Shown: positions 12,839 through 59,760 of the stretch, piece after piece | Position numbering within the stretch: the stretch's first letter is position 1 | Layout: every line of letters begins with the position of its first letter | Source: Zygnema cylindricum | Lineage: Eukaryota; Streptophyta; Zygnematophyceae; Zygnematales; Zygnemataceae | Direction of reading: 5' to 3' | Assembly: GCA_037447655.1 (NCBI GenBank) | Contig: JBBHKE010001999.1 | Coordinates: forward strand, 95,206 to 159,205 | Length of the DNA: 64,000 nucleotides | Notes under the pieces: generated by a model | Database searches by the model: none | Told to the model about the DNA's origin: nothing | What the model saw: only the letters and a program-made list of their open reading frames with translations | Program-made: the position numbers and the translations under genes

Positions 12839-13120
12839 GTGGAAATGCATTATTTTTCGGCTTCTTCGTCTCTCCCAGAGAAGACTTTGACGTTTACTAT
12901 AGAATATGAAACGGATCTATTTGCTATGGCAACGACAATGAAGGGCTTGAAGGACATTGAATGGATAATGGATACGGGAGAGTCAACTCACATGTGCAGG
13001 AACAAAGCTATCTTCAAAAATCTGAAAACAACGCCGGAGAAAAATATTTATTATGCTTGTGGGATGAGTGTCCAGACACGTGCTGTGGGTGATGTATCTT
13101 TGCTCGTTGATGTAGTATGA
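12839..13120 (+). pseudogene. copia family 2 aspartic protease region
   Basis: The segment IEWIMDTGESTHMCRN holds the DTG active-site triad at about residue 45 of the open piece, equivalent to the D-S/T-G-A motif of copia proteases. The enzyme would cut the Gag-Pol precursor. The piece is open for 93 codons but isolated from its neighbours by stops. Confidence 0.75.
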
Positions 13121-13161
13121 AAAGCAATTGAAAGGACCATTCACAATGTCCTTTTTGTTAT

Positions 13162-14218: not shown

Positions 14219-14522
14219 AGGAATATGTTATTCTACATTGCATCCATGAAATTGTCCAACAAATACAAACTTCACCGGTGGGAACACGGGAGTCTGAAAT
14301 TCTCCATGTTCCTTCACAAGTTCAGTTCCAACCGAACCTACTGCGGTCAATACCTTGTGATCGCAACCAGCGCAACAAGCGCAATGCAAGGGATTCGGCA
14401 ATTTTAGCCTCAAAATTTCCGGGGGAGGAAGAAGATCTAGTGGCCCCCTGCAAGCAAGTTTTCACTTCGCCTACTCGGCAGCCTCAGGGGAGCCTCTAAC
14501 CATTCAAGAGGCCTTCTCATCA

Positions 14523-15616: not shown

Positions 15617-16066
15617 AGTGATGCAAGCTATGGCGACATGCCAAGCCAGAAATCCACCACGGGATTCGTTCTACAAATTGGGAACGGGACTTGCTGCTGG
15701 AGCAGCAAACTTCAAAAGGTTAAAGCACAATCAACAATGGAGTCAAAATATATGGCAGCAAGCTCGGCCCTCAAAGAACCCTTATGGGTAAAATCCATGT
15801 TACAAAAACTATGATACATGCAGGTAGGTCCACAAGTGATCTGGTGTGATAACCACGCTGCCATTGCCATTGCCTCTAACCCAAATCATCACTTGAAGAG
15901 TAAGTACATGGATGTAAGATTACACTTTGTAAGAGAAAAAGTGTTCTCTAGGGTGATTAAATTATGCTATCTAGCAGACGTAAGAATGATTGCTGATATG
16001 CTTACTAAATCTTTTCCTGTTCCTAAGCTGAAGTATTGTAGGGATGCAGTAGGATTCAGTGAATAG
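15617..16066 (+). pseudogene. copia family 2 RNase H (broken)
   Basis: The C-terminal domain of Pol would remove RNA from the hybrid. Visible parts are SDASYGDMPSQKSTTGFV after a TAG at 15614, CCWSSKLQKVKAQSTMESKYMA, and VIWCDNHAAIAIASNPNHH near 15840, followed by VREKVFSRVIKL. It ends at a TAG after DAVGFSE. The order matches other copia RNase H domains. Confidence 0.85.
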
Positions 16067-21480: not shown

Positions 21481-21659
21481 AATGAGAAAACAACGATGAC
21501 GAGATTAATTACTTAGGAAGAAAGTCGGTCTCGACTGGAGAAATTGTTTTAACTTTGGAGACTGGATTCCAATACTGGAAAAGGTTTTACGAGATATTTT
21601 GGTTGTCGTCGAGAAAATTAAAAACTGCCCGCGTTTAAAAGCATGCTGGACCTGCAAGG

Positions 21660-21915
21660 CGGGAGAGGGGCAAAATAAAGAAAAGAAAGAGGGAGGAAGG
21701 AAGAGGGAGAGGAAGGGAGGGAGGGAGAAGGAGACGGGAGAGAGAGGGGGACGAGGAGGGGGGGGGGAATGGAAGGGAAGGAGGAGGAGGAGGAGGAGGA
21801 GGAGGAGGAGGAGGAGGAGGAGGAGGAGGAGGAGGAGGAGGAGGAGGAGGAGGAGGAGGAGGAGGAGGAGGAGCGGGAGGAGGAGAAGACGGAGGGGAAG
21901 TGGGAGAGGGGAGAA
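21660..21915 (+). repeat. G-rich purine tract with (GGA)n core
   Basis: A mixed GGGAGA tract surrounds a nearly perfect GGA trinucleotide run at about 21779-21872. It could form quadruplex or triplex structures. Poly-Pro, poly-Leu and poly-Arg frames in it are artefacts. Confidence 0.9.
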
Positions 21916-22118
21916 AGATGGAGAGACAGACTTTAGGTGAAAGAAAAAATACAACGTGAAAGTAAACCAATTAAGAAATGCTTCTTAAAACTAAAAAACC
22001 AAAAAGGACCCAGAAAAAAATGACATGAAAGGACACGTGATGTGAAAATAATACGAAACATCCAAACTTTTCTTGGGTTGAGGAAAATTATTATTTAATG
22101 TGGATACAAAAATGTATC

Positions 22119-22534
22119 ATCCCTCTCCCCCTCCCCCTCTCCCCCTCTCCCCCCTCCCCTCTCCCCTCTCCCCTCTCCCCTCTCCCCCCTCTCCCTCCCC
22201 CTCTCCCTCCCCCTCTCCCTCCTCCCCTCCCCTCCCCTCCCCCTCCCCCCTCCCCCTCCCCCCTCCCCCTCCCCCCTCCCCCTCCCCCCTCCCCCTCCCC
22301 CTCCCCCTCCCCCCTCCCCCTCCCCCTCCCCCTCCCCCTCCCCCTCCCCTCCCCCTCCCCCTCCCCCTCCCCCTCCCCCTCCCCCCTCCCCCTCCCCCTC
22401 CCCCTCCCCCTCCCCCTCCCCCTCCCCCTCCCCCTCCCCCTCCCCCTCCCCCTCCCCTCCCCCTCCCCCTCCCCCTCCCCCTCCCCCTCCCCTCCCCCTC
22501 CCCCTCCCCCTCCCCCTCCCCCTCCCCCCTCCCC

Positions 22535-22596
<62 letters not shown>
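22119..22596 (+). repeat. pyrimidine tract: (CCCCCT)n then (CT)n
   Basis: About 420 bp of CCCCCT/CCCCT units are followed by about 60 bp of pure CT. The strand polarity is opposite to the purine tracts on both sides. Confidence 0.92.
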
Positions 22597-22599
<3 letters not shown>

Positions 22600-22619
22600 C
22601 AACAATCTTTTTTCGGACA

Positions 22620-23018
22620 GGTTTTGCAACATTAACCTATTTTTTAATTTACAATGTCATGAATAAAGGAACTTCTGTGAAGTCAATCTATGATCTATGA
22701 ATAAATTAACTTTTTTGTGTTGTTTCTTGAAAACTTACATTGAAAGAAAGTAGGAGATTGAATTACTGTTTAACAAATTTTATGATCTATGAATAACTTT
22801 TTTTTTATGCTTCTCAAAAACTTACATTTAGGGAGAATCGAAGATGAAGTGTTTGACTTAAGATTTCAAAGACGATCGGCTCCAGATCCTTGAAGGAAAT
22901 AAAACGTTTCTTGATCGACCCGAAGTAAAAGAAATGGCCATTTTTCTGAATTGCCTTTGTCTTTTTCTGAAACTGCTAGGTCAATATTTGTAGCCTGCCA
23001 AAGAATTCCATAAACAAA
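22620..23018. other. unique AT-rich spacer
   Basis: Nothing is recognised. TTTATGATCTATGAATAA words occur twice (near 22685 and 22780), indicating a local duplication. Confidence 0.45.
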
Positions 23019-23385
23019 TAAAGAAAGAAGGAAAGAAAGAAAGAAAGAAGGAAAGAAAGAAAGAAGGAAAGAAGGAAAGAAGGAAAGAAGGAAAGAAGGA
23101 AAGAAGGAAAGAAGGAAAGAAGGAAAGAAGGAAAGAAGGAAAGAAGAAAAGGAAAGAAGGAAAGAAGGAAAGAAGGAAAGAAGGAAAGAAGGAAAGAAGG
23201 AAAGAAGGAAAGAAGGAAAGAAGGAAAGAAGGAAAGAAGGAAAGAAGGAAAGAAGGAAAGAAGGAAAGAAAGAAAGAAGGAAAGAAGGAAAGAAGGAAAG
23301 AAGGAAAGAAGGAAAGAAGGAAAGAAGGAAAGAAGGAAAGAAGGAAAGAAGGAAAGAAGGAAAGAAGGAAAGAAGGAAAGAAGGA

Positions 23386-23429
<44 letters not shown>

Positions 23430-23431
23430 AA
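23019..23431 (+). repeat. (GGAAAGAA)n microsatellite
   Basis: About 410 bp consist of the 8-mer GGAAAGAA with edges of pure GAAA. The three overlapping Phe/Ser/Leu frames on the minus strand are translated repeat. Confidence 0.95.
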
Positions 23432-24789
23432 TGAACATACATAAGTATTAATAACACACGTCACCCTGACAAACCCTAAAAAGCCCTAAAAAAACCTAAA
23501 AAGCCCTAAAAAGAACCTAGGAAACCCTGAGACGTAGACAAAAATTGGTAAAATTTTGTCAATCGCAATTGGTCAAAACTCCTACGAAACAAAAATGGTC
23601 AAATTTATAGCTACACCGTGAATCACTATGATAATAATAATGACGACACTAATTTTTCCCCTTTTTTTGGCCCTAATTGTTTTTTCTTAAAACTAATTCT
23701 TTGAACGGTTCAGAATTAGCCATGACATTCGGAACCCTAAAAAAACCAAACAACCCTAAAAAACCCTAACGACACTAATTACCCCTACGCTAGTCATTTC
23801 TTTACCCGCATAACACTAATATCACTATTGAGTAGAAAGTCTTTTTTTTTTGGTAAAAATGCAGAAAAGGACAGGTAGGTAAAGGGCAAAATAAAGGATT
23901 GCCAATTGAATTAAAATAGGTAATATTTGACAACAAAGAATACGTCTTAAAAATAGCAAACGAGAATGTCACGAAGTGACATTTCCAAATTTAATCTAGA
24001 GCTCACGTGATCCTGAAGGGTCACTTGACTCTTTTAAAAGAAAAGACAAAAAAACGTCTTTTCGTAGAGAAATAAAGATCTAATCTAAAAGCTGAAAATA
24101 AAGATTCTAAAAGCTGAAAACAAAGATTCTAATCTAGAAGTGAATCTAAACACGAGTACAAAAACAGATAAAAAAAATAACGTAAACTAGAATGGTAGTG
24201 TGCGTTATTTAGAAAAGAAACTGTGAAAGAGGAATACAACCAGCAAAATTCCAACAAAAACTCCCACATAATAATAATTAATAACTAATAATTTCCTCCA
24301 AAAGCGATTCACAGTGTAGAAAGCTGATGGTCAATTTTGGTTATCATTTAGAGGATAATTTCCACGTTTAAAGACCACGAACCAGATGCTAAAAAAACCC
24401 TAAAACACCCTAGAAAAGAAAAGAAACCGTCTGAAGGTAACCGTTAAAAAACCTTGAAATCCCTAAAAAACCTAAAAGAGGGAAAAAAAAATCTCACTTT
24501 AACGCGGTCTAAAGCGATTTCAAATCACATCATAATGGCCGCCATCCCCTCGAAAACCCTAAAATACCCTTAAAATTTTATTAAAAATTTCTAAAAAAAA
24601 AAAAAAAAAAAAAAACATAAAAACAATCCCAGAAAAACTGCTAAAAAAACTTAAAAAAAAAAAAAAGTCTCACTTTCACGCGATGTAAAGCCACTTCCAA
24701 TCGCATCATTATGGCCTCCATCCCCTCCACTCGGCCCGTCATATTGCAATGGGAACAGGGTTCAGTAAAAGTTTGCATGAGGCTCTGGC
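23432..24789. other. AT-rich stretch with telomere-like CCCTAAA words
   Basis: Irregular ACCCTAAAAAGCCCTAAA runs occur at about 23468-23515 and 23735-23770, with weaker ones near 24395-24560. They are too degenerate to be telomere arrays. An A homopolymer lies near 24592-24615. No gene is seen. Confidence 0.5.
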
Positions 24790-25005
24790 GCACCTGAGAG
24801 AGGGAGAGAGAGGAGGAGAGAGACGGAGAGGGAGGGAGAGAGAAAGAGGGGAGAGAGAGGGGAGAGAGGGAGGGGAGAGAGAGAGGGGACAGAGAGGAAA
24901 AAGAGAGAGGAGGAGAGGGGGAGGGAGAGGGAGAGAGAGAAAGAGAGGGTAGAGAGAGAAAGTGGGGAGAGAGAGGGAGAGAGAAAGAGGAGAGAAAGAC
25001 GGATT
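24790..25005 (+). repeat. GA-rich low-complexity tract
   Basis: GAGAGAGGGAG-type sequence, with translated Arg/Glu/Gly frames that are not genes. Confidence 0.9.
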
Positions 25006-25338
25006 AGGGTTGACGGTTTTAGGATATTAGGGCTTTCAAGGCTTTTGAGGGTTTCCAAGGTTTATACGATTTTTTAAGGGTTTTTACAATTTTTTTAAGG
25101 GTTTTCAAGGGATTTCTAGGGAGTTTATAAAGATTTTATAGGGTCTTTTAAGGTTTTTAGGGTTTTTAAGGACTCACGGAAGGCTTACATAGAACTCTAT
25201 TGGACTTGAAAAAACACATAACCTGTCATTTTCGGGTTTTAGGGGTTTAAAGGGATTTTTAGGGGCTTGTTCGTTTTTATTTTAGGGTTTTTAGGGCCAT
25301 TTAAAGGATTCTAAGGAGGGAGGGAGGGAGGGAGGAGG
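25006..25338 (+). repeat. degenerate TTTAGGG-like stretch ending in (GGGA)n
   Basis: TTTTTAGGGTTTTTAAGG words run for about 300 bp in the orientation opposite to the CCCTAAA words upstream. The stretch ends in GGGAGGGAGGGA directly before the assembly gap. Confidence 0.6.
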
Positions 25339-25348
25339 NNNNNNNNNN
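25339..25348. other. assembly gap (10 N)
   Basis: Ten N characters mark a gap of unknown true size, next to a simple repeat that could have caused it. The 5' end of the main gene probably lies in or beyond it. Confidence 0.99.
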
Positions 25349-25603: not shown

Positions 25604-25667
25604 GGTATACTGGTTGGGTGGGGGGCATTGCTCCAGAGATTGGCAACCTTACACGACTAAAAATATT
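25604..25667 (+). other. first visible LRR exon of the main gene
   Basis: The exon encodes GWVGGIAPEIGNLTRLKIL, the usual beginning of a plant extracellular LRR domain, and ends in two bases of a Leu codon before GTGAGT. The acceptor TTTAAG is weak, so the start is uncertain. It begins one base into a codon, so at least one more exon precedes it. Confidence 0.6.
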
Positions 25668-28600
25668 GTGAGTGTAAATTGAGAGAGGAAATGCATCTCA
25701 TATGGGAATTTCTTATGATACAAATAATGTTTCTCGTGTTGGTGAACATTTTCTAAAAGAGATGTAGAATGTTTACAATAATCGTATTCTTTTGTAGGTA
25801 CTAATGATTGGGGTGGTATGTGAAACGGTGGAGGGGGTGGGGGTGAAATAAAATAGAGTTGTTCTCAAAAATTGAATGAGTGTAAATGACGGTTAGTTGA
25901 GGAATTTAAAACATTGGAAAATTGAATAATAAGTTATAATTGGTTAGATTGGATTATGTGTTGTTTTCCAAAAAATCCTTTTTGATGTGTAAAAATTCCG
26001 TACTAGAGGGGTGATTCAATCTTTGAAGGGGTGCATTGGTGGATTCGAAGCGATCACCACTTTAATAACTAACTTTTATAAAAAATAATAGTTTGACAGA
26101 AAAGCAATGCGTTTTAAAGGTAAATTTATATTTTTGTATTTTTACTCGTTGTTTGATTATGGAAGGTGGTGGGATAAATTGAGGGTGGTTTCGGATAAGT
26201 ACAAAAAAAAACATTTTGGAAATTTTACTTTTTGATTCGCGGAAGAACAGTATAGGCTAAGTACTTGTGCATTGTGTTTACCAAGATTTATTAATGTTTT
26301 TTATGTTAAAGACATTTGGGAGGTTTGGGATGGGCATGCGTGGTTTCACAGATCTATGGGTTATAACCAGTTGAGTGGAAGCATTCCAACGTCCATCGTT
26401 CGACTAACATCCCTCCAGTACTTGTAAGAAAATATATCGACATATTATCTACCAAGTGAATAAGTAACTAAGATTGATACCTTAAATAGTATTGACTATA
26501 GTAAAGGGTCGAGGAGGGCGGGGGGACGTTTTAAGCAAGTGAGAGCATAACATTACAAAGACTACTAAATAATAATACAAATAATATCATAAACAAATAA
26601 TATGTAAAAATTATTCTCAATAATCATAAGTAATAATTCCAATTTATAAGAATAGAATGAAACGATAAAAATAATTAACAGCTACGATTATAAATATAAT
26701 TATAAAGTATCAGAAAAAAAATAATAATACTGTAAGTAAATGATCAAAATAGTTAAAAATAGTGATTGTAGAAATTTTTTCGATCATTTTCAGAAGTTTA
26801 ATAGATGTTAATAATTGTTGTTTGTAACAATTAATTCTAAAAAAGTATAATGATAAATAAAGGTTAACAGTCGAGTATAAAAATAGTGTAAACTAATGAT
26901 AAATAATACGAATCACTAACAATACAAGTCGATGAATAACAGTATATAGTAATAGGATCAAAAAAGAAATAATGATAGGTCTCATCAAAGTCAACTAAGA
27001 GGTTTGTGGGTGCAGTTTCCGGTAGTCATAGATGGTTGGATAAAAAAAACTTAATAGTAATTTATAACAGCCACTTTAATCAAGAGTTGATAAATATTTA
27101 GCGAAAACATAACTACTAAAAAACTTCATGATATATAATAGATTGTTTGACTAAAATTTGGGAGGTTTGACGGTGGGGATGTGAGGTGTCACAGAGATTT
27201 ATCTGGCAACAAATTGATTGGAAGCATTCCATCGTCCATCGGTCAACTAAAATCCCTCCAAACCTTGTAAGAAATACATAAGAAAAAAAACATTTACAGT
27301 TTTAAAACATTCCTCGAAACAGTGCAAGACACATTTTGTAATAGATAATCCTTTAACGATCCTTTAAAAAATCTTGTCTGTTTTACGGGGTAGTCCATGA
27401 GAGGGAGTGGTAGTAAGCGCGTGAAAAGGAGTTATAATCATAGCAAATTATTAATAAAAAAAAAATAAAAATGTACAACTAATTGTAATTAATATAAACA
27501 AACAGAAAGTATTTTATAATACAAGAAAAAAAGTTAAATTGTAAAAACAGATAAATAACAAGAGTAATAAGTAAATTTCATAAAAAGAATCAGTAACAAT
27601 AATTGATAGTTATAACAACTTATGATTAAGACTTATTATGAACTTATTCACATATATATAAATAAATAATTTAAACTGATAAAAATTAAGTAATTACCAT
27701 TGATGATGAATATTTATTAGTAAAAATTAACTTCAACTATTAAAAATAACACTAACTGGAAATCTTAATCAATAATTTACGATGATTAATAATTAGTAAT
27801 TGACAAATCATAAATAATAAATATTAAGCATTAAACTATAACTCAATATTAAATAATCGTACGAAATAGATAGTAAAAAAAAACACAATATTCAAGCTGT
27901 TTCACTAAAAAGGGTTTGGGAGGTTTGTGGGTGGGGATTTGAGGTGTCACAGATCTCTATTTGAAAACAAGTTGAGTGGAAGCATTCCATCGTCCATCGG
28001 TCAACTCACATCCCTCGAAAAATTGTAAGAAATATATGAAAAGTATAAATTTGCCAAATTTGAAACGTCTGACGAAACATTGTAATGCACATTTTACAAT
28101 AAATAGTAACATAAAAAAATAAAACCGTTCCCTTAAACAATATTATATAACATGAATTCTGGATGGGTAGGGGCGGGCGAAATAAAAACTAGTTATGATC
28201 ATTGCAATTTAAAATTAAAAATACATTAATTATAACAACAGATGCTGTAATTAATTAAATTGATATTGAACAAATGATTTAAAATAATTAGTTATATTAA
28301 CAATTAACTAAAAATAAAAACAAAGAATAAATGATAATGGTATTTTTTAGAATGTATAAAATCAATCAGTAGTAAAACTGATCATAATAATAAGTATTTT
28401 ATGAACATAAATGTATAAAATAAACTGATGGTAAACACAAATAAATATTGATGATAATATTTATTAATAAAAACTGATTTTAACAGTTAAAAACAATATT
28501 AGCTAGTAATGCTAATTAATTATGTAACAATTGATATTAACTAACCATAAAACATAGATGACGGTAAAATTTCATTAATAACAATAATAAGCCAGTTTGA

Positions 28601-31600
28601 GTAAAAAGAGTTTAGAGGATAACGGATGGGGATGTGGGTTATTACAGCTATTTGTGGAGCAACCAGTTGAGTGGAAGCATTCCATCATCTATCGTTCAAT
28701 TGACATCCCTTCAACTATTGTAAGAAAGAGAAGAGGACACATTTTACAAAGTGATAACACCCCGCAAAACATTGTAGGACAAATTTTGTAGTAGATAATA
28801 ATAAATGAAAACATAATTGATCTATTAATAATAATTAGGGTTTTCGAGGAGGAGTGGACACCAGTCACGTGAAAACTGGTTATGATCATAACTATTTTAC
28901 AGGTTTTAAAATAAATTAATATAAACAACTATTATTACAATTGATTTCGATCATTTTGAAAACATCAATAATTATTTAAAAATAATAACAATAAATAAAT
29001 GATGATAGTAATATGTAAAATTAATAGGAATAATCGGTAATAATAAATGATAATTATTAGAATTCAACAGAATCCGGAATTGGCATGTCTTGAAGGGCAA
29101 TCTCTTGCCAATTCAACAGTAAAAATAGAAACTAATAATTAATATAAGTAAAATCAACGGATAATAAATTATTAATAATACTCATGATAAATATATAACA
29201 CTATATAAATCACAGCATTTTCATAACGATAATAAACAATGCTAATCAATAATCAGAGATTGATATTTATTAAAGATGAAAAATGGTTGATAATAGAAAT
29301 TCATTAACAACAATAATAAGCCAATTTGAATATCAAAATCCTGCGAGGTTTGGGGGTGGGGATGCGAGGTGTCACAGAGTTTTCCTTGATAACCAGTTGA
29401 GTGGAAGCATTCCATCGTCCATCGGTCAACTAACATCCCTCTATAACTTGTAAGAAATATAAGAGAAATGCACTATCTAATTACTGGAAGGATCCCTTGA
29501 AATGTTGAAGGATACATCACCTGGATACTACAAAGATAAAATGTTTAATTAATAACAATAAAATGTAAGGTAAAAAAAATAGAAAATAAGAATAAAACTT
29601 GAACAATCAAGATCTTTATATGCGGGTAGAATGAAATGCGAGCAGGGGTGGGGGGGGGAGAATTAATCAAAAGAAATTTAAGTTTCAACCAGGTTTTGTT
29701 CTTTTATGTTTGTTTTTTCTTAAATGTTTTCCTGTTTATAAATTGTAATTATTATTATAATGAGTGTTGTTGATTTTTTAAAATATCAACATTAATCTAT
29801 TTACCATTTTTCAATAGCCAGTAATCTGTTACTATCACGGCGGGATCCAATTGTGTTGTGAAAAAAGCAAAAAAACAATAAAAAAAATACTACTTTTGAA
29901 ACGGGCAAGTGTAATGCTGAATGACTAAAACACATAAAAGAACCGTTTTTAAAAATAAAAACCTAATATTAGAACTAATATGTAATGATGAAAAATGATT
30001 AAAATACTTAATACTATCAGCATGAACAATAAAGCCATTTCTCATTTCCGCATTTGTAATTTGTTGGTGGAAAATCAATTTGGTCAAAAAGCTAGATTGA
30101 TTTATTCACTTTTATCAAAAAAATGATAACTTAATTGTTTTAAGGTTGATAGAGAATAGGAAAATTTTATCTTGATAACAACTTCAAAATCAATGAAAGA
30201 AACATGTCTTTTTACACCAATATGCGTAAAATTGGATAAATTTACAAGTACGTGCTGCATAAATCATATCTTACATTTGTTTGGCGTGAACTTGCAACTG
30301 GCGTTGAGTATAAAGTACCTACGAGGTATGGGGGTGAGGATATCACAGAGACCTATCTAACAACCAGTTGAGTGGAAGCATTCCATCGTCCATCGGTCAA
30401 CTCACATTCATCCGATACTTGTAAGAATTATAAGAGAAACTCACAGGAAACATCCCTTGAAATCCTGTAGGGTACATCACCTACCAAATAGACAATAAAA
30501 TACACATAAGAAAAAAATGTAATTTCATAAAAAAAAAAAAATGAGTTGATATTTTGAACAATTATGATCTTCGTATATGGGTGGAATAAAATGTGGGCGG
30601 AGGGTGGGGAGGGGGTTGAAGTAATGAAAGGGGGATTGGGGTAATGAATTTTACGTTCGAACAAAGTGTTTTTTTACAATATAATGCATTATAATGGATT
30701 TTAATTGTTTTGTTACCAATATCTTATATATGCTCCAAAAGTTAAGTTGTAATTGCTATTATAAATGATTATTATTGTGAATAATGAGTATAACATTAAT
30801 TTATTCATTATTTTTTTCAGTAATAGTGATTGTAAAAGTGATTGTTGTTATCAATAAAGTGGGCACCAATTTTTTCGTACCACGAGTAGAAAAACATCAA
30901 AATCTTAGGTTCGACATGGGCAAGTGTATTGTCGAATACCTAAAAATAAGAGAAACGCTTTTTATGATTTTTTAATCATAGAAATGTATTTAAAAAAAAA
31001 ACGGCTTATGCAACAATTGATTTTAACGAATGTTGAGAAGTTCAAAAATTTAACACAATCAGTAAGAGTAATTAGCCGATTTTTACTTCCTTGTAGTTTA
31101 CTAGTGGAAAATCAATCTGGTAAAAAAACTAAAATTCATTGATTTACTTTGACCAAAAAAATCATAATTTATAATCCTTTTAAGGTTGTGGAGGATAGGA
31201 GTAGCTTTTGTATAGTAACAACTGAAAATCGATGAAAAAAACAATTCTTAATACAAACACAAGCCCAACGTTGAATAAGATAGACGTTTATGTGATGCAA
31301 AAATATTTTACTTTACATTTGTTTATTGTGAACTTTCAATTCGTATTTAATAAAAAGTACCTAAGTGTTATGGGGGTGAGGATGTCACAGAATTTTATCT
31401 GGCAACCGGCTGACTGGAAGCATTCCGCCGTCCATCGGTCAATTGAGATTTCTCTCCACATTGTAAGAAGCATTTCGGTTGAATAGATGTGTTTTCTCGA
31501 TATTTAGAACCTAAATATTAAATGAGTAAAGTTTCAATCAAAGTGGCACGGGTCAAAACAGGCGAGGGTTGCTGTCAGGGGTGATAGCTTTTTAAGCTAT

Positions 31601-34600
31601 CAAAAAATTGTTATGAAAAACGAAATGATTAAAATTTCTATCACCCTAGGCCTTTATGAAAATTATTCTGTCCGATTGATGCATATTTTTACCTTTTTGT
31701 TTATTAGCGTAACACTCACTCCATCGAATCCAAAGCCCGTTCAATATTGGTATCGTGCAATCTGCGATTGAAATTTTCTTAAGTAGAATTAACAGGATCT
31801 AAACTTGTGCACATATAATAAATTTAAAGGGAACCATGTGATACCCACTTGTTAGTTTTTATTTTGAGTTTCGGAACGGAGGTATACAAGTCCGCTAATT
31901 GTAAGCAAATCTGAGAAAATTAGTATATGCTCCCTGGTTGCTTCTTCTCTTTGAGCGCTCTCCTAACGCCTTATACCAGGGTTTTCCTCTTACCTCGAAT
32001 TCTTCTTGCAATCACTTGTTCCTCCCTCGCCCTTTCCCTCTCAAACCTTGAACAAATGAATACACCACTTAGTAGTTGAACAGAAGAACAGATTGTAAAC
32101 AAAAAAGATTGTGTAAAGTTATAATCTACTGGTGACACCACATGCTTGGGAAAAAATATATATATTTCCACTTAAAGTAAAATTTGAAAACGTGAGAAAG
32201 TCAGTTATAAAAGTGAGAATAGTGAAGTGCATAAACAAAAGTACTGGAAATGTGTGGAAGGCAGAAGACATAAAAACAATTGTATTATTTTATACTTAAA
32301 TATGGTGCTACAAGAAGGTTCAGAGTAGGCTAAGAGTCTATGTTATTTTTTTCTGTAATAACATCCTCTATGTCGGTTTCAAAGTTTCACACCATGGAGG
32401 GTTAGTTCTCGTAACAAATTGTTTCATTATCAGTTTCAAAATTTCACAACACGGAGATTTTGTCCAATGTTGTGAACTTGAATTTGATAATTTTCTCATT
32501 ATGCTTTTGTGCAGGTCATTGGAAGACAATCTTTTGAGTGGCTTGATTTCGTTCCCGCTGGATTCTTGGGCATCTATGCCTGCATTCGACTTTAAAAATA
32601 ATTTCCTTTCCGGTTCTGCAATAATGTATCAAGATACTCCCAATATTTGCAATGCAGCTATTGGGAACTGCTTCAATGACAATGACCCTTTGCTGAAAAA
32701 TTGTTCTTCAAAGGGGCAAAGGAACAAATCCCAGTGTTTGCAGTTCTGTAATGCTTCTCAACCAAAGGGTGCGTGTGGCGGCCACGGTATCTGTCCTGGA
32801 CTGAATAAGTCTTGCATATGCGATGCTGACTATTCCACGGATATAAGTTTCAACAACACGTGCACTTTCAGTAAGTCTCTACACTGTCGACACTATCCAC
32901 GCTAATTGATATGATGTTTTTGCTTATATGGCCCTTCTCACACCAAACTTCAAAAAAAATAGCAACAAACGCAGCACCATGTTTTGGGTATTGTGAGGTT
33001 TGTCAACATGATATACACTAATCAATATGGAGTTTATTTTTATAACGTCATATTTTCTAAATTTAAGGCAAATGCATGTGTAGACTAACCAGAACCTATT
33101 TTATGTGTTAGAATTGCTTCCTTGCCATAACAAGCCTTTAAAAGCAATCACAATTAATGATTTAAAACTCAATGTTCGTGAGGCCAATTTAATGTATGGC
33201 TCAATAATGCCCTTTTTTCACGATTGCTTGTGTTAGTAATAGAATGTTATTGAATCGCCATTGCCTCAAACATACATTATTGTTTTAAAACCATGTAACA
33301 ATTTTGCCGAAATTGTGTGAAATGTCCAAATGCGACAGGTCATTTTTATTTATTTCTTGTTGTTTCCAGTTCATTGAGCTATCATCTTGAGTTTCGTATG
33401 ATTTAAGGTTTATGTATTGTTAAGTGATCACATTGTCATGCACTAAATTCCTTATCAATTTTGTGGCTCATTGTAACCACAAAAAACTTTTGAGGTATTT
33501 TGGAGTCAGCAATGTGCAAATATTTTTTGTGATGCATGCCTTACAATTGTAATTTTTTTCTTCTGATTTTTGCAGAACCACGTGGGCTGGGATTATTAAC
33601 ACCGCCGCAAACATTGTCTAACAAAACAAATCATTTTTTCCGTTACGCAAGTTCTGGATATTTGTATTCCAAGGATAAAAAACCAACATGGCTGGTGGCG
33701 ACCTCATGGAATTGGACTGCTCAACTACCTAGCAGCAAAGTCAAGGATCAATCTAGCTGCAGTAAATGCCCAAAAATCCCTAAATTTATGTTACTTGAAG
33801 AAAAAATGTGATTTAACTCTTTTGTATCATCTCTGCAAATGACCTTCCATTCATGATTTTTGATGCCATTACCACACTAATGTAGCAAAACCACACTATG
33901 CTAATAGTTGCAATTTGAAATGGTCAATTTCTTTGTAATTTTTTTGTGATGTGTAGATACATGCTGGATTATTTCTGCTTTCAGTGCCATTGAACATGCT
34001 TATTACATTGCAAACGCGGGAACACAACCTCTCCCTGACTTACCAGCCGGGCAAATGCTTAATTGCTCTAAAATTACCTGTGCTAGAGGAGGTTGGCCGA
34101 ATGAAGCGTTTGATTACGCAGCAAACACAGGTCTTTTATCATCAAAAAGTTTCACGAATGAAAGTACCTGCAAATTGGTCAATGTAAGTCGATGTTTATG
34201 CCTTCCAAATACCCTGATTCGTGTTTTTTCTCCTGTCTCTTTCAATTTTTAGGGTTTCCTTCTATATTTTTTACTCTCGCTTTCCTTATTTTTATTCAAT
34301 GGTTAAATGAGATATCTTGCGACCACATTATTTATGTCTATGCTTCCAAATACCTTCCACGTGCTCCCTGTCTACTCTTTTTTTTTCTTTAGTGCTCTTT
34401 ATGATCTTTCACATACCTTGTTTTCCCTATCTGCTCACTTTTCTTCAGCATTTAATTTATGTGACCTCTAATTACTTCTTTTAAATTCTTCACGAATTTC
34501 TAAAGCATTATATTCATGTTCTGATTTTTTCAACGCTGAAATTATGTACCCTGTGTTACTTTTTGAAAATTCCTGACATCCTTTTACAACATAATATCCT

Positions 34601-37600
34601 TGGTCGGATTATTTTGCAGAAATTAAACGGAATACAAATTTTATCATATGATAGAATTCAAATGGATGGCTGGAGTGGCCTCTTATTGGCACTTCAACAG
34701 CAGCCAGCTGTGGTGGCTATCGAGGCCAGCTCTTATGCTTTCAACAACTACAACCCGGAATTAGTGAGCACTTGTACCAAGTTTTGAGTTTTTTACAATC
34801 CACAAATGCCATTTAGAAATATTCTAGTGATGTGAAACCAACCTGAAATCGCTGCTGCAAGCTTTTTCAAATGTTGTTAGAATCACGGAGCTATCCTCAG
34901 GTTCAATGTTTCAAATTTCATAGGATCTTTGTGCACATTTTTACGAACTAATTTCACGTGGTTCTCTGTTATTCGTTGTAACACACGTGTTTGGGATTGG
35001 TGCAGGGTGTCTTTGATGACGAGACTTGCTTCTCAAACGGGGTGGACCATGCGGTGTTAGTCGTTGGTTACGATTTGACAGCCGAGACGCCCTATTGGCT
35101 CATTCAAAATTCATGGGGAACCAGGTGGGGGGATAAAGGATACATGCGTCTTAAAATATCAAGTGGTTATGGGATTTGCGGAATCAATACTCAACCAGCT
35201 ATCATACCAATAATGAAGCCCAAACGTAAGTTCGGTAAAAGGCGTATATTCTGCTCAAGTTTTGTGTGACTCAAAAAGGATATGTAGGAGCAGCTGGCTA
35301 TCTTCATAGATGCTAGTTGGTGAATTGAATGAACTATCATAGTATGTGATTGATTTTTTTTGCATATACCGTGAGTGGGTGAAGTCAACGTGCTGATTTG
35401 TACGCTTTTATTTTTTTTCCTTCTGGGACATTTCAGCTGGTGATCTGTGCAACGTCAAAAATTTTGCACAAGTACAACAGAATGCTACTATTGGTCCTGG
35501 AAGCATGAACCCATGTGGCAATGGTTTATGTACTTCAAACAGTAAAACATATACCTGTAAATGTATGGATCAATTTGTAGCCGTGAACAATACGGACGGA
35601 ACCCAAACTTGCGCTCCAGGTGAGAAACATTTTATAATTTTTAGACTTTGTTTTCAAGCATGTTGAATTTTTTTGATTTGTAACTTAAAAGAAATGTTTT
35701 TACACTCTAAGATTTTTTTCAAAGGGAAGACTGATTAAACTCCAGAGTACAGAATGTGTGTGCACATTGGTGTATATGTCCAGTTTTAAAAGCGTCTGTT
35801 AAAATGTTTGAAATTCTGCATATATTTTGGTGGATTTGAAAACGCATTTGTCCTTCATTTAAGTTTCTTTGGTTATACAATGCCGCACAGTGCCCATTAT
35901 CAATTGGAAATGATTGTAGTATTGATATTGGAACACAATCTAAAGGTCGCCTTAACTCAGGAACAATCCTCCATATCCCATAAAGCAACTTTGCTAGATC
36001 GATCACCCTTTAGTTGTTTAACCGCGTGGACTTGCTTTGTTTAAGAACATTGTGAATACAATTTCGTTTCATCCATTGTAAGTCTTCAATTCTCTTTTTA
36101 ATGGAAGTCTTTCAAAACGCAATTTGTAGATTGTATTCATGTGGTTCAAGATTTTTTAATGGCCTCAACCCTTTTTTTGTTTTGTTTAGCCTCTCCATGT
36201 ACCTTCACATCTCGCAACCCTTGTGGAATGGGAACCTGCGTGGACTCTAAGGACAAACCGGGAACGTACGCTTGCGTTTGTTCGATTGGATATGCGGCGG
36301 ACAATTCAGACGGTTCTCTCTCGTGTGTTCCAGGTGGGTTCTGTTGACTCTTGTCTTATTGCACAAATTTGCTTAGAAATTTCACTCTTTCAAGTTATAC
36401 AATGAAATACGGATGTGATCATTTACCTATTTCTACAACTCTAAGTAGAGAATCATATTTTGATCAAAATTTGTAAAAATTCAACCTCAAAAGGCACAAA
36501 GTTCCAGTGCAGACACCTCAACGGTCTTCGAGAGATTTATGTTTTCAATAATTTACATAGATTAAGGTTAGTCGGAGGTTCAACACTAATTTACATTTCA
36601 CAGTCTCTGTTCCTTCATTACATCACAATTTTTATTGTGGTAAGGAAAATCATAAGGAAAGACATTTTTACCTATATCCATTTTAATGCACGTTAAAAAT
36701 GATATTTGAAAAACACTTAATATGTTGAATCATTGTCACATGCAAATGCATGAAGTAAATTTGTAGCGATGCTAACGTGAAACACTTTTTGGGTTATTAA
36801 AACAGTGTTTTAATTTCCTGTTGATATCCACCAACGTTTTCACTTCAACCTTGTTTTTCTCTTCGTGGTTTATTTTTTTTTCAGCTGCCGCTATGGTAGG
36901 GGCAAAGGAATATGTTGTGCCAGTTGGTGGAACTATTTCTTGCTCGAATATCTTCAACACATATGGCATCTCACAACAAAGCTTTTTAGAACAAAACAAG
37001 GTTATATTTTTATCACTTTTTTTGCCCTGTTGTTGAGCGTACTTACCGTCAAAACTGCTAGTTTTCTTCTTCGATGACTGTAGCAATTATCATATTTTGG
37101 AAAGGGAAGGGTGCAATCGGTTTTTTTGCGTAGATGCAACGGTCCTTTTGCATAGATGTACGGTATAATGTTGGCCTAACACCATTACGAAAGTGGATTT
37201 GGGTTGAGCTCCAGAACTTGAATTGCAACCAGCTTCTCCCGAAAGGTGCCAAAGTTAATGTAACCAACTCCATAGAATGTTCCCTAATTTATGCAGCGGA
37301 AGAGGTAAGTTTACGTTCTTGTGAACCATGCAACTTTTTTTTTTCTCAATTTGACTCACGTACTTGGACCTTTCGAGCTTTTATTCTCTTCTTTTTATCT
37401 TACTAGAGTGGTTTTAGCTATTGGCCCTATTATTATGGTCTTCTAAAATAGCAATTCCATTTGAGTACTAAATTACTTTAAATAGCTGATCAATGCAAAA
37501 TCGGATTTTCCAGGGCGATACATGTGATTCCATCAAGTTTACTTTTAAACTCCCGGACAGCTTCAAACTCGATGGCCCAAATTCTCCAAATCCGAGCTTG

Positions 37601-38540
37601 AACTGCTCCAATTTGAAACCATATCAACAGGTGGTTTTGGAAAACCTTAACCCTACATTTCAAAATCTGGATGCATGAATGGACAAAAGTGCGATGTAAT
37701 TTCGCTTAATTTCTGACGAGTTTGTATACTGTTGTGTTAACATTATCATGTCACATAGACATCCAAAATTACTAAACTTTTTGTTGTATGCTTTTTGAAA
37801 ATAAATCCATTTTTGCTAGATATGCATTACGAAGGGAGATTTACCATTTCGTGGACCCTGTACCCGTCCATATAGCATTAAGCGGGGGGAAACGTGCCCA
37901 ACCATTATTCGTCAATACATGAATGGAAACGTGACAAAATTCTATTCCCTGAACCCTGGTGTGTACTGTGGCCGTATCCGGTTATATTCCGACGATGACA
38001 ACACCTTTCAGCAAGAGGTGAGAATAATTTCAACACACCAACATTCATCTGACTTGTTAATGTCCAATCCATGACAAATATCTGTTCTTTCAAAACCTAC
38101 AAAGTTTATTATTTGCCTTTTTAATGCTAATTGGCACAAGGTTTCCCTCATTCGTACTTGCGATTTGCACGTTTATTAGATTTCGTCTCCCGTAATTAGG
38201 CGTGACAAATTAGTATTATGGATGCGAGAATATTGTGGTCTTTTGCAATCTCCTATGATATGTATTTTAGCTCTTTGTAGTTGCCTTTTGTCTTTAAACC
38301 AGGGTTTGTAATTTCTATTACGCAAAGTCTATCTAGTGTGGAAAATAATGTTCATAATGGATGTTGTATCTCTCATGCCTCCAGGTTTGCTTAGACACTG
38401 TGGACCTTGGAGGTGCAATAGCAGGATGCAGCGGGACAGCAGTCACATTGGCAACCTCACAAAACTGTGCCATTTTGAGAACCAATTACTTCAAAGATAA
38501 TCCGAATACAAAAATTATACCTGCATCCTTTCTCACTTGA
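25604..38540 (+). CDS. LRR - EGF - papain-like protease - EGF - EGF - LysM multidomain protein (5' incomplete)
   Basis: I place 20 exons: 25604-25667, 26352-26423, 27195-27266, 27953-28024, 28648-28719, 29378-29449, 30349-30420, 31391-31462, 32515-32870, 33576-33761, 33957-34183, 34620-34763, 35006-35225, 35437-35619, 36190-36333, 36885-37000, 37134-37304, 37514-37630, 37820-38017, 38385-38540. All introns are GT-AG and phases agree throughout, giving about 927 codons with no internal stop. The product reads leucine-rich repeats, an EGF-like Cys-rich module, a C1A cysteine protease with intact catalytic residues, two EGF-like modules and three LysM motifs. No kinase or membrane segment is seen. 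It is likely extracellular because of its many Cys, EGF and NxS/T sites, but the signal peptide lies upstream and is not visible. A role in sensing or cutting wall or microbial glycoproteins is inference. The last exon may be shortened by a TGA. Confidence 0.85.
26352..31462 (+). repeat. tandem array of seven 72-nt LRR exons with their introns
   Basis: Seven exons of exactly 72 nt each encode one 24-residue repeat of the plant type NQLSGSIPSSIGQLTSLxxL. All are split at the same phase, inside the final Leu codon. Start-to-start spacings are 843, 758, 695, 730, 971 and 1042 bp. The first 60-100 bp of each intron (GTAAGAAATAT onwards) and the last 40-45 bp before each exon are also related, so exon plus intron was the unit of duplication. 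The middle of each intron is AT-rich and has diverged. The last exon (GNRLTGSIPPSIGQLRFLSTL) is the most different. Confidence 0.92.
31463..32514 (+). other. intron between the LRR array and the Cys-rich exon
   Basis: This 1052-bp intron runs from GTAAGAAG to TTTTGTGCAG. It contains no recognised gene. A minus-strand frame at 31971-32171 has no family resemblance. Confidence 0.75.
32515..32870 (+). other. exon with LRR cap and EGF-like module 1
   Basis: It encodes a last LRR (LEDNLLSGLISFPLDSW, then FDFKNNFLSGSAIMY) followed by a Cys-rich stretch. This includes CNAAIGNCF, a spacer with possible N-glycosylation sites, and an EGF-like pattern CGGHGICPGLNKSCICD ending NNTCTF. The donor is TTTCA|GTAAGT. 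It links the recognition part to the protease. Confidence 0.8.
33576..35225 (+). other. papain-like (C1A) cysteine protease domain, four exons
   Basis: The domain spans 33576-33761, 33957-34183, 34620-34763 and 35006-35225. The oxyanion Gln is in KVKDQSSC (codon 33749). The nucleophile is the second Cys of CNTCW (codon 33962). The catalytic His is in GVDHAVLVVGYD (codon 35048) and the Asn is in YWLIQNSWGTRWGDKGYMR (codon 35108). The middle part CARGGWPNEAFDYAANTG matches the papain CxGGxPxxAxxY region. The length from the start of the core to GICGINTQPAIIP fits a mature C1A enzyme. No I29 inhibitor propeptide precedes it: only about 45 residues lie between the EGF-like module and the mature-like start. 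Residues that papain has at CWAFS are here CWIIS. Confidence 0.9.
35437..36333 (+). other. EGF-like modules 2 and 3, two exons
   Basis: Exon 35437-35619 encodes NPCGNGLCTSNSKTYTCKCM and ends TQTCAPG. Exon 36190-36333 encodes NPCGMGTCVDSKDKPGTYAC, then CSIGYAADNSDGSLSCVP. Each has six Cys in EGF spacing, and both introns are phase 1, so each exon is a movable single-domain unit. They probably act as rigid spacers or binding modules between the protease and the LysM part. Confidence 0.85.
36885..38540 (+). other. LysM region, five exons, ending at an early TGA
   Basis: Exons are 36885-37000, 37134-37304, 37514-37630, 37820-38017 and 38385-38540. LysM 1 is YVVPVGGTISCSNIFNTYGI joined to LNCNQLLPKGAKVNV. 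LysM 2 is EEGDTCDSIKFTF with NPSLNCSNLKPYQQICI. LysM 3 is YSIKRGETCPTIIRQY with FYSLNPGVYCGRI. LysM domains bind N-acetylglucosamine polymers such as chitin. The last exon (CSGTAVTLATSQNCAILR) may be a fourth, weak copy. The frame stops at TGA 38538-38540. Confidence 0.85.
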
Positions 38541-38639
38541 AATAAGTTCGCATGTACCAACACTGCACTTAACACTATTCGTGCAAAGGCCAAAAAAGCC
38601 AGTACAACTCCCAAAATTTGTACTCCAAAACTGAAATGA
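38541..38639 (+). pseudogene. sequence after the early stop that still reads as the C terminus
   Basis: After TGA the same frame continues for 32 codons (NKFACTNTALNTIRAKAKK to ICTPKLK) and ends in TGA at 38637-38639. Counting this part, the last exon is 255 nt, exactly the length of the paralogous exon 59506-59760. The paralogue has TTA where this copy has TGA. Confidence 0.8.
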
Positions 38640-42599: not shown

Positions 42600-43852
42600 C
42601 ATTTACGACCACACTTCTCCTTAAAGAAAATTTAATTTAGGGGAAGGTACAGATTTGGTCATCATATCTGCTACCATCTCACTGTTTGTTATGTACTCTA
42701 AGCTAAGGATTTTGTTTTGTGCATTCTCTCTAACAAAAATGAGTATAATATCCATGTGTTTGGCTTTGAAGTGGTGTTTGGGATTGGCGGCAATGGTAAT
42801 TGCTGCCTGATTATCACAAAAGATTTTCAACACACCACTTTTGAGATGATGAAGCTCACCAAGCAAAGACTTGACCCACATTAACTCTTTTATAACAAAC
42901 CAAGCGGCCATATACTCAGCCTTCGTGTTGGAATGAGCAATAACCTTATGTTGTTTTCTCCACTAGCAACAAGCCCCATCTCCCACATACAACATATATC
43001 CAAAGGTACATTTTCACATAGGAGCATCGGCATAACCGGCATCACTCTAATTGGTGATGTCTCTATCCTTGCCCAAATACAACCATAAATCCCTAGTCCC
43101 TATAGGATATCTAAGGACTTTCTTAACTGCCTCCCAATCCCTTTTAGTGTGAGCATTCAGTCTTCTACTCAGCACTCCTACAGTTGCAGCCAAATCCGGT
43201 CGGGTACAATTCATAAAACTGATGAAACTGCTCACTACTTGTCTATAGGGAATAGTCTGTATTAATTTTTGTTCTTCAAGACCTAGTTCATTATCCAAAA
43301 TTATGACTCTCCGTTTTTAACTCCTCTCACTTCCATTTAAGTTGTACAACTATTAACCTTGTCCATCTGAGACTTTTCGAGTATATTTCCAATTGCGTCC
43401 TCTTGAGTTAATATGATAACTTTCCTATCTTTGTCTCTTTCCACCTGAATACCCAAAATGTATCTTGCCCCTTCGTATCCTTTATTTCAAATCTACCTTT
43501 TACATCCGTTTTAAGTTTATTGATTTTTTCCATAGACTTACTCAGTAGAAGCAAATCATCAACATAAATGGCAATAAAAATGAAACCTTCCTCATCTTCA
43601 AACATGTAAATTGAGTGATATGAGCTGATCTGAATGTATGACCGATAAGAAATTTATCAAGCTTCTTGTTCCACTGCCGAGGCGCTTGTTTTGGGCCATA
43701 GAGGTATTTGATCAACCGACATATCTTACTCTCCTTTCCTTGCTCCATGAATCATTCTAGCTGCTGCATAAAAATATCTTCTTCTAGCTCTCTATGCAAC
43801 AAAGTTGTCTTGATGTCCATTTGGTGCACCTCCATGTCTTTACTGCCGCCAA
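42600..43852 (-). pseudogene. copia family 1 pol, RT to RNase H (broken)
   Basis: Read on the minus strand, it begins in RT at MDIKTTLLHRELEE, then YLYGPKQAPRQWNKKL, IYVDDLLLLSKSMEKINK and FMNCTRPDLAATVGVLSR, then RNase H with KIFCDNQAAITIAANPKHHF and ADMMTKSVPSPKLNF. It ends directly before LTR copy B. At 43852 it stops abruptly in RT and unrelated LTR-like sequence begins. Frameshifts break it. Confidence 0.85.
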
Positions 43853-44163
43853 ATTAGGTCACAAATCCTTTTGTCGGTTTCGTTAAATTTTTTAATCGCC
43901 GTGGTAATGCTTAAATAGATATCATGCCCTATGTATATAACAATTCTTTTACGACTTGGGAGATAAGGTAGACAACTACTTTGACCGGCGGTGATTTTGT
44001 AAGAACTAAGATCAAATCCGAATCAGGTCACAAATCCTTATGTCAAAGGACTTTCTGTTGTTTGTCTCCTCAGCTGCTTGAAGGCAACCTTGGCTGCCTA
44101 AGTCTCACTAACAACGACAAGTATAAAGACTTAGACAAGCAACTACAAAATGTATTTTAACAC
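43853..44163 (-). mobile_element. LTR fragment of a second minus-strand copia element
   Basis: On the minus strand, TGTTAAAATACATTTTG follows the purine tract AAGGGGAG of the upstream pol, as an LTR start should. Only about 310 bp remain before the pol fragment at 42600-43852. AGGTCACAAATCCTT occurs twice (near 43857 and 44026). It is not obviously related to the family 1 LTR. Confidence 0.5.
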
Positions 44164-47100: not shown

Positions 47101-47325
47101 ACCGCCTAAGGCACAATTTTGCTTCCTTGGAATCTCCGGCTCGGTATGCACCGCCAACTCCACGTTGAGGAGAGGTTTGCCATCATCGTTATCGAAATCC
47201 TCTCCCGTTACTTTTATCTTCCAAGTGTCTTCTTCTTTCCTTTGGTTGATCCACCGATCTTCCCCTCTTTAAGCTTCAACTCCGTCAATCTAGTACATTC
47301 CGCAATGTAGTGCCCCGGCTTACTA
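44164..47325 (-). pseudogene. copia element 2 (minus): gag end, protease, integrase, RT, RNase H (broken)
   Basis: On the minus strand from 47325 downward there is a zinc-knuckle half SKPGHYIAEC, then the protease IIDSGASMHKYREKYMF near 47060. The integrase core piece RARSDNGGKYNFNKFEG is near 46290, and the C-terminal piece KPGYLLGYDENVKGYRVYDL is near 45910. RT follows as YEMKDLEEANYILGIQMERD near 45090 and FMNCTRLDIVAVVGKL near 44800. RNase H is SDACYGDVSMRRCIFGYVLY and, near 44330, MDVKPRFVREKVENKI. Stops and shifts separate the pieces. Gag N-terminus and 5' LTR are missing: the sequence flips to + strand RNase H at about 47325. Confidence 0.85.
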
Positions 47326-58035: not shown

Positions 58036-59760
58036 TATGTTGTGCCAGTTGGCAATTTTATTTCTTACCCGACAATCTTCACCACATATGGCATCTCAAA
58101 GCAAAGGTTTTTAGAACAAAACAAGTTCTCATTTCTATTACTTTGAATGCCCTGTTGTTTGACTTTCCTAAGTCAAACTCCTGGTTTTGTTTTTCAATCC
58201 AATTTCTCTGGGAAGGGAATAGTGCAATGGCAAAATTCTTTTTTGCAAAGGTGTATTGTATTTGACCGCTGGCGTAATACCATTAGGAAATTACATTTTG
58301 ACTGAGTTTCAGAATTTGAATTGCAACCAAAGTCTTCCCAAAGGTGCCAAAGTTAATGTCACCAACGGCGTGGAATGTTCCCTATATTATACAGTGCAAG
58401 AGGTAAGTTTCTTTCCTTGTGAACTATACAGGTTTTTTTCTGATTCGATTTGTTTTAGATTGGTTCTAAGTTTTGCTGTAATCCTTTTTCTTTGTTTTAC
58501 TGTAATGGTTCCGGTTGTTAGCCCCCATGACTATGGTTTGTAAATAGCAATTTCATTTGAGTATTTGACTACTTTACGTAGTTGATCTATACTTAATCAT
58601 GACTTTGCAGGGCGATACATGTAAATCCATAAAGTACATTTTTAAAGTCGACCATGACTTAGACCTTGGAGGCCCTTATTCTCCGAATCCGGATTTAGAT
58701 TGCTCAAATTTGGAACCTTTTCAACTGGTAATTTTGGAGCATCTGAACCCTATATTTCGAAATTTTGTTGCATAAAGAGACATAAATGGAAAATACGATG
58801 TAAATTTCCCTAATATTTTCACGAGGTTGTGTCTTTTTGTGTCAACATAACATTGTTTAGACATCCAAACTATTAATGATTTTGTTTTATGTGTTTGCAA
58901 AATATATCTGCCATTGCTAGATTTGCATTACAAAGGGAAAATTACCATTTCGTGGACCTTGTACCTGTCCATATACCATTAAGCGAGGGGAAACATGTCC
59001 AACAATTATTCATAATCGGATGTGTGGAAACGTGAAAAAATTCTATACTCTAAACCCTGGTGTGTATTGTGCTCGTATCCTATTATACTCCGACGACGAT
59101 AGCACCTTTAAGGAAGAGGTGAGAATAAGTCAAACACATCCATATTTATCCAAATGTTTTAAGTCCACAACAATGGTCATTCTTTCAAAACACACAACTT
59201 TCATTATTTCCCTTTTTTAAATTTTAATCGAGCCGTGTTTACATCATTGACTGCACCTGTTTTGCACACCATCCCCCGTGATTACGCTTGGCAGATTACT
59301 GTCATGGATGTGAGAATACTATGGCCTTGGCAATTTCCTATAATAAATAATATAGGACTATGTGGTTACCTTTTGTCTACAAACTAGGATTTGCATTTGT
59401 TGCTACACAATGTCTATCTACATAAGTGCACAAAAACTAAGTTTGGTGCATAATAAGTAAATTTATAAATGTTTATCGTAGTTGTTGTATCTTTTTGTCC
59501 TCCAGGTTTGTTTAGACAGTGCGGACCTTGGGGGTGGAATGGCAAACTGCAAAGGAACCAGTGTCACATTAACATCCTCAGATACTTGTAACATTTTGAA
59601 TACCAAGTTCTTCAAAGATGATCCTAATACAAAAATAAAACCTCAATCCTTTCTCACTTTAAATGAGTTCGCATGTACCGAAGATGCACTTGCGCTTGTT
59701 TTTGCGAAGGCCAAAACAATCGGTGCAAGTGGAAAAGTTTGTACTCCAAAACTGAGATGA
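58036..59760 (+). pseudogene. partial paralogue of the main gene: LysM region only
   Basis: Matching exons are 58036-58128 (cut at its 5' side), about 58223-58402, 58611-58727, 58921-59118 and 59506-59760. The last three have exactly the lengths of their counterparts (117, 198 and 255 nt). It reads YVVPVGNFISYPTIFTTYGI, LNCNQSLPKGAKVNVTN, GDTCKSIKYIFKV, YTIKRGETCPTIIHN and NPGVYCARI, ending AKTIGASGKVCTPKLR. The donor after the first exon is weakened (one G lost). There is no protease, EGF or LRR part, so it cannot give the full protein. The C-terminal exon lacks the early stop. Confidence 0.85.

Follow-up and report, generated by a model that had tools for sequence, protein, structure and literature searches.

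Background

In the green alga Chlamydomonas, proteins that combine a Peptidase_C1 domain with LysM modules are known, and combinations of C1A proteases with lectin domains are said to have been lost from vascular plants, according to the portions of two papers on which we draw (PMC2728734, PMC6362431). Here we describe a gene at positions 25604-38540 on the plus strand of a 64,000-nucleotide (nt) stretch of contig JBBHKE010001999.1 of Zygnema cylindricum (hereafter the window), which likewise fuses a papain-family protease to LysM modules and also carries an array of leucine-rich repeats (LRRs). An earlier reading of the window made without database searches (the sequence-only reading) had named fusions of LysM to papain domains in some volvocine algae. 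Unlike the family to which the window gene belongs, the Chlamydomonas proteins are, in what these sources say of them, described without mention of an LRR, a diversified array or a large family. This is a comparison by description: no chlorophyte C1-LysM protein was among the matches listed in our homologue searches, and none was fetched by name.

The LRR part has its closest described counterpart in the LRR-ROCO genes of brown algae, for which the portion of the report used here gives one LRR per 72-bp exon, constant exon phase, exon shuffling and positive selection at concave sites (PMC11378527). The window gene shares with these the phase-constant 72-nt LRR exons and the positive selection at concave sites. 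However, the brown algal genes carry a ROC-COR GTPase, whereas the LRR cassette of the window joins a predicted extracellular protease and LysM modules; a Pfam scan of the window protein gave no ROC-COR tandem, and the likeness is thus one of diversification only. Exon shuffling is reported for the brown algal genes; in the window gene we looked at tandem duplication. A secreted papain-like protease and an extracellular receptor are also described as cooperating in immunity in the tomato pair Rcr3 and Cf-2, the latter a membrane LRR protein, but in the accounts used here these are two proteins without LysM, whereas in the window family everything lies on one chain. Horseshoe crab Factor C and the MASP-type lectin-protease systems couple sugar recognition and EGF modules to a protease; these are an analogy only, being animal serine proteases without LRR or LysM.

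No LRR-C1-LysM family or architecture was found described in the open-access PMC literature, in agreement with the sequence-only reading, which knew of no family with the full order. According to a published study (PMC9915684), 209 combinations of Pfam domains are exclusive to Zygnematophyceae; the words 'papain' and 'LysM' are absent from the main text as available to us, and the combination may stand unnamed in its tables. The C1-LysM fusion and the 72-nt LRR cassette are each already known, and what is new is that each LRR is a phase-matched exon within this architecture, with diversification of the concave face.

Gene structure and domain content

The gene model comprises 20 exons, all introns being GT-AG, with a spliced length of 2705 nt. 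The spliced frame encodes 900 residues without an internal stop, while the other two frames hold 43 and 47 stops. Exon 1 (25604..25667) encodes a partial LRR with a weak profile match (E 0.004), and its upstream phase is unlike that of the other LRR exons. Exons 2 to 8 are 72 nt each and all of the same phase, and each encodes one LRR (26352..26423, 27195..27266, 27953..28024, 28648..28719, 29378..29449, 30349..30420 and 31391..31462). Exon 9 (32515..32870) carries the last LRR or cap together with the EGF-like module a. The protease is spread over four exons, in which splice model, family profiles, Pfam and active-site alignment place a conserved linker followed by the oxyanion Gln (..KDQSSC) in exon 10 (33576..33761), the catalytic Cys (NTCW) and the C1A central helix in exon 11 (33957..34183), the middle of the C1A domain in exon 12 (34620..34763), and the catalytic His (DHAVLVVGY) and Asn (NSWG) in exon 13 (35006..35225). 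The EGF-like modules b and c follow in exons 14 (35437..35619) and 15 (36190..36333). LysM1 is divided between exon 16 (36885..37000) and exon 17 (37215..37304), which also begins LysM2; LysM2 continues in exon 18 (37514..37630), LysM3 occupies exon 19 (37820..38017), and LysM4 starts in exon 20 (38385..38540 as read), where it is cut by a TGA.

Pfam recognised Peptidase_C1 (PF00112) at residues 349-557 of the 900-residue product with an E-value of 1.8e-41 (143.1 bits against a cut-off of 20.7), LRR_1 at 2.9e-23 and LysM (PF01476) in two stretches at 3e-6; EGF, at 0.01 (exon 15), fell under the curated cut-off. Family profiles identified three EGF-like modules and LysM 1-4 in the window protein; these profiles were built from seven sequences (the window protein and its relatives P0001-P0005 and P0026), so that matches to these seven are built in. 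The Gln-Cys-His-Asn active site is complete in all seven of the window protein and six relatives. The combination of LRRs, an active-looking papain-like protease, EGF modules and LysM motifs that the sequence-only reading had proposed is therefore confirmed.

With regard to class, the protease part has the papain fold of peptidase family C1A, and the solved structures nearest to it are papain-like enzymes, the plant ones best (e.g. ficin and ananain). The I29 inhibitor propeptide (PF08246) gave no match before the protease in the window protein or in the precomputed domains of P0001-P0003, and the window protein is therefore not placed in the papain/cathepsin-L-like subgroup that has this propeptide. 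Where I29 would be expected there is a conserved linker, some 35 residues long. When the model of P0061, a relative without LRR, was searched with Foldseek, pro-enzymes ranked first (procaricain, root-mean-square deviation (rmsd) 6.2; pro-triticain, rmsd 3.6), and its VIA-align rows extend back to residues 26-28 (rmsd 3.8-5.4), the rows listed being filled by one domain, without LysM or EGF. These rows may hint at a propeptide-like course of the linker over the cleft.

The LRRs are of the plant extracellular type, as judged by Pfam for the window protein and by fold for P0001. In Foldseek the predicted LRR part of P0001 appeared closest to the plant receptor ectodomains MIK2, FLS2 and PEPR1, with a plant-type horseshoe. 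Unlike in these receptors, the LRR of the family is fused to a protease, no kinase domain was matched in the Pfam scan of the window protein, and P0001 and P0003 show nothing resembling a membrane segment past the N terminus, as judged by hydropathy, no dedicated predictor being used. We consequently do not class the family with LRR receptor kinases or receptor-like proteins. Nor is it classed with the LYK/LYP LysM receptors: LysM modules are present, but no kinase was matched in the window protein, and the hydropathy of P0001 and P0003 gave no clear membrane anchor. The full-length P0001 model had a predicted template modelling score (pTM) of 0.49, at which the domain arrangement is unreliable, compared to 0.82 for P0061.

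Homologous proteins in other algae

Among the matches listed in our length-limited searches, relatives came mainly from Closterium, Mesotaenium endlicherianum and unnamed EukProt transcriptomes, and the remaining matches, besides P0061, were papain-like proteases without the family modules. A module scan found LRR, C1 and LysM together, in the order of the window, in 23 of the 77 homologous proteins, including the transcriptome open reading frames (ORFs) P0001 and P0002, which are marked complete. Twenty of these 23 also have a legume-lectin domain before the protease, a position in which this domain is present in 42 of the 52 Closterium proteins (P0004-P0055), in P0059 and, by precomputed domains, in P0078. 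It was not found in the window gene, in P0001-P0003, or in P0079 (precomputed domains). P0061, from a source of unknown taxon, consists of a hydrophobic N terminus, EGF, C1, two further EGF modules and four LysM; it may represent the state before the LRR was gained, or else a form from which the LRR was lost. We define the family as the zygnematophyte LRR-EGF-C1-EGF-EGF-LysM proteins, and by its predicted module order and exon structure the window gene is a member.

Family loci in the same genome

The genome (352.8 Mb in 2689 contigs) contains at least 150 scored matches to PF00112 (out of 303 candidates), 137 of which lie in the C-terminal half of the protease. Stretches of at most 10 kb were taken around the 20 best C-terminal C1 matches besides the window's own; these are top matches and not a random sample, and the size of the family should be read with the 21 loci looked at (window and 20 sampled) in mind. 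Family modules in the same order and on the same strand are present in 18 of the 20 (LRR in 16, LysM in 16), the other two being ordinary papains. Together with the 23 proteins above, these provide the same-order homologues on which the sequence-only reading had staked its case. Gln and Cys are present in all 16 loci with a visible Cys exon, and His and Asn in 18 of 18; L017 keeps the Cys and has Arg for the next Trp.

Ten of the 18 loci entered the codon comparison to the window, and four of these were dropped: L024 (contig end, no stops), L012 and L027 (missing exons) and L013 (gaps, two stops). The other six cover the exons over 29378-38639 in frame, with ratios of nonsynonymous to synonymous substitution (dN/dS) of 0.26-0.44 and no stop of their own, and in these six the splice dinucleotides AG or GT are kept at 131 of 132 places (exons 9-19). 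No in-frame stop was seen in gap-free exons 9-20 of any of the 18 loci, and these exons are clean throughout in L014, L017, L020, L022 and L028.

These comparisons bear on whether neighbouring unrelated genes were joined by eye. The introns are long, repeats and a gap lie nearby, and the exon joins rest on sequence, all of which would allow for such an error. But the same order occurs in single transcriptome ORFs and in the 18 loci, the exons are covered in frame and the splice sites are conserved. We therefore rejected separate neighbouring genes; this explanation is largely refuted and highly improbable. The introns within the two spans singled out by the sequence-only reading (31462-33576 and 35225-36885) are supported by the related loci, as far as alignment can tell, and the claim of the sequence-only reading that 20 exons in one frame form one transcription unit is borne out by the open frame, the same-order homologues and the splice conservation.

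Three pairs among the 19 loci compared share 93% identity or more over lengths above 1.5 kb, so that some loci may be alleles; the sampled members are mostly distinct even so. One pair is the window gene and L022 (G000:C1662:10835-20834), which is 97.2% identical to it over 9.5 kb, introns included, and lacks the early stop. Zygnema cf. cylindricum SAG 698-1a is reported, in the part of the source available to us, as diploid, with a genome of 360 Mb, a heterozygosity of 2.22% and a Copia content of 29.8% (PMC9915684). Since the dS of 0.020 between the window gene and L022 is close to this heterozygosity, L022 may be an allele of the window gene, or else a very recent duplicate.

Selection on the LRR cassettes and the protease

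The window and the sampled loci yielded 49 LRR exons, of which 47 are free of stops and preceded by a canonical acceptor; 42 are unique. From plant LRR work, we take the five x of xxLxLxx (repeat positions 22, 23, 1, 3 and 4) to be the exposed residues of the concave face. Already within the window's own seven LRR exons, dN/dS was 1.60/0.63 at these positions compared to 0.13/0.35 elsewhere. In a codon model of the 42 exons, the concave class had an omega of 3.0 compared to 0.49 at the remaining LRR positions, and fixing the concave class at omega 1 cost 24.5 log-likelihood (lnL) units. An omega above 1 was favoured at each of the five concave positions singly, while two other positions were slightly above 1 without being significant; these per-position values take kappa and scale from the two-class fit and are not independent of it. 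None of 2000 random five-position sets reached the observed statistic, whereas omega exceeded 1 in 22% of the sets.

The rest of the gene gave a different picture. All 11 exons tested among exons 9-20 (8-19 loci each; stop and gapped codons masked) had omega below 1, ranging from 0.08 for the His/Asn exon 13 to 0.63, with 0.46 for exon 9. In the copies studied, the codon comparisons thus point to positive selection on the LRR concave face and purifying selection on the attached protease. The LRR exon-intron units of the window are tandem duplicates of each other, 63-73% alike over 230-1287 columns.

Proposed function and alternatives

We propose that the family encodes secreted proteins that would be anchored on glycans by LysM and would cut variable targets recognised by the LRR, most likely in defence; as a whole, this proposal has in our judgement an even chance of being right. 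It builds on the modules and their order, the catalytic residues, the expansion of the family and the selection pattern observed here. The layout would be a signal peptide, the LRR array, EGF, a legume-lectin in most Closterium members, the C1A protease, two EGF modules and three to four LysM. The LysM (and lectin) modules would hold the protein on N-acetylglucosamine-containing glycans, whether microbial or belonging to the alga's own wall and mucilage, the LRR concave face would bind a variable protein or peptide target, and the protease would cut the bound target, or a captured protease inhibitor would thereby be sensed. As the single-LRR 72-nt exons are phase-matched, their duplication, loss or exchange would leave the frame intact, and because positive selection would then act on five exposed residues per repeat, new specificities could arise. 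Recognition and cutting by one molecule is supported by the diversifying concave face and the purifying selection on the protease. The sequence-only reading had suggested one secreted protein that binds a glycan by LysM, recognises a target by LRR and cleaves it; the selection pattern fits this, and glycan binding and cleavage are carried over as predictions.

If the defence reading is true, LRR, LysM and papain-like protease would act as one molecule, compared to separate proteins in land plants, in an alga that is apparently a member of the group most closely related to them. Being a large family in which positive selection is restricted to the recognition face and the protease is constrained, these genes also provide concrete, testable candidates. 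A wider interpretation, which we put forward tentatively and consider rather unlikely as a whole, is a zygnematophyte immune system in which a large repertoire of LRR cassettes on a conserved, glycan-held papain would recognise, anchor and cut on a single chain, with Ser-for-Cys members as decoys, without kinase receptors, and which was lost from or never present in land plants.

Several observations weigh against the proposal. The nucleophile is Cys in 51 of the 63 homologous rows with a letter and Ser in the other 12, and Gln is kept in 56 of 59 and absent in three; since some members have Ser for Cys or lack the Gln, cleavage would not be essential in every member. Purifying selection on LysM2 is weak (2dlnL 2.8), and the selection trees come from 69-nt exons of one genome and let branch lengths vary by one shared scale factor only. 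In P0002, a stretch of 19 residues inside LysM1 is hydrophobic (2.12, residue 797). Stops fall inside the match in 39 of 150 PF00112 rows, a hand count in which intron read-through accounts for an unsorted part. L012 is without exons 9-11, L027 is without exon 9, L013 has frameshifts in exons 11-12 and two stops, and in L019 exon 15 has a gap of one base. Some members of the family may therefore be decaying, three or four of the 18 loci looking incomplete or broken; exon absences in L016, L025 and L026 reflect distances too great for blastn, as the family profiles find the modules, and other absences reflect stretch ends or distance. The window copy itself is truncated in LysM4. Secretion of this copy, exchange of exons between genes, the ligands, cleavage and a role in defence are what we infer from the sequences.

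The Ser-containing members raise the alternative that the papain domain is a bait for microbial protease inhibitors, with the LRR on the same chain detecting or stabilising the resulting complex, much as if Rcr3 and Cf-2 were joined in one protein. In eight Closterium proteins (P0013, P0015, P0018, P0024, P0027, P0041, P0045 and P0068), Ser replaces the catalytic Cys while the Gln and the motif around the site are retained, P0025 combines this Ser with Glu in place of Gln, and His and Asn are kept in all 72 homologous rows with a letter; the other Ser rows lie at a gene-model edge (P0062), in a changed neighbourhood (P0030) or are ambiguous (P0065). Rcr3 and Cf-2 act together in tomato, according to the parts of the sources consulted (PMC7468133, PMC11371160). 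However, the Cys is retained in every same-genome locus where its exon is visible, the His/Asn exon is under strong purifying selection, and no kinase match or clear membrane helix (the latter in P0001 or P0003) is available for relaying a signal. We consider a sensor or decoy role unlikely for these reasons.

The rapid evolution of the concave face would also suit proteins of cell-cell or mating recognition that remodel wall or mucilage in conjugation and have no part in immunity, as reproductive proteins too typically evolve fast. In Closterium, CpRLP1 regulates the sex pheromone PR-IP, a mediator of protoplast release, in the portion of the report used (PMC5736609). On the other hand, the number of C1 matches, with nearly all sampled loci belonging to the family, and the LRR cassettes exceed what two sexes would seem to need, and a role in mating appears improbable to us compared to the defence proposed above.

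Ends of the window copy

The span 25604-38540 lacks the 5' end and is therefore not the whole gene. A search upstream within the window gave no exon for a signal peptide or LRR cap; this negative is weak, the profile from 11 relatives being poor and several of its pieces lacking the cap. A gap of 10 N lies just upstream of exon 1 (25339-25348), and long simple repeats are seen at 21500-23450 and 24800-25348. The missing 5' exons may lie beyond the repeats and the gap.

At the 3' end, the TGA at 38538-38540 cuts the fourth LysM. All seven loci covering this codon read Leu there, and the TGA is therefore premature. The frame of the covering loci continues to the usual family stop, equivalent to 38637-38639 (in L017, to the end of its stretch), and the remainder of the LysM4 exon (38541..38639, plus strand), in frame past the TGA, is conserved in the related loci. 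The single gene of the sequence-only reading stands as to modules and frame; that reading missed the absent 5' end, the truncated last LysM and the large family with cassette-like LRR exons.

The premature stop and the absent 5' end, together with the near-identical L022 as its possible allele, could mean that the family is real but its window copy a null allele or one in decay, which would be compatible with the function proposed for the family. But the 817 codons aligned with L022 are free of frameshifts and, the TGA excepted, of stops, with a dN/dS of 0.44, and the loss is confined to the final 33 residues, which belong to just one of the four LysM modules and do not make up all of it. Decay of this copy is conceivable, and we find it somewhat doubtful.

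Other features of the window

A second, partial copy at 58036..59760 (plus strand), recognised by the family profiles, has the LysM1-4 exons only and ends at the usual family stop; no other family modules were found upstream of it within the window. An ORF just upstream of this copy (57711-58064, minus strand) looks Copia gag-like by eye. Copia-like retroelement relics were likewise seen by eye at 12752-16066 (plus) and 42621-47268 (minus), with many stops of all three kinds. An alternative genetic code was considered and rejected, since each of the three stop codons is found in the relics and the gene is readable in the standard code. A segment at 10320-10658 (plus), reading ..ADDTHIIGP.., looks by eye like a piece of a non-long-terminal-repeat reverse transcriptase. 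Lastly, matches to the C/D-box small nucleolar RNAs (snoRNAs) snoZ103 and snoR160 scored above the gathering threshold at 1581-1673 and 1991-2070 (plus), some 320 bases apart, and perhaps mark a snoRNA cluster or host gene.

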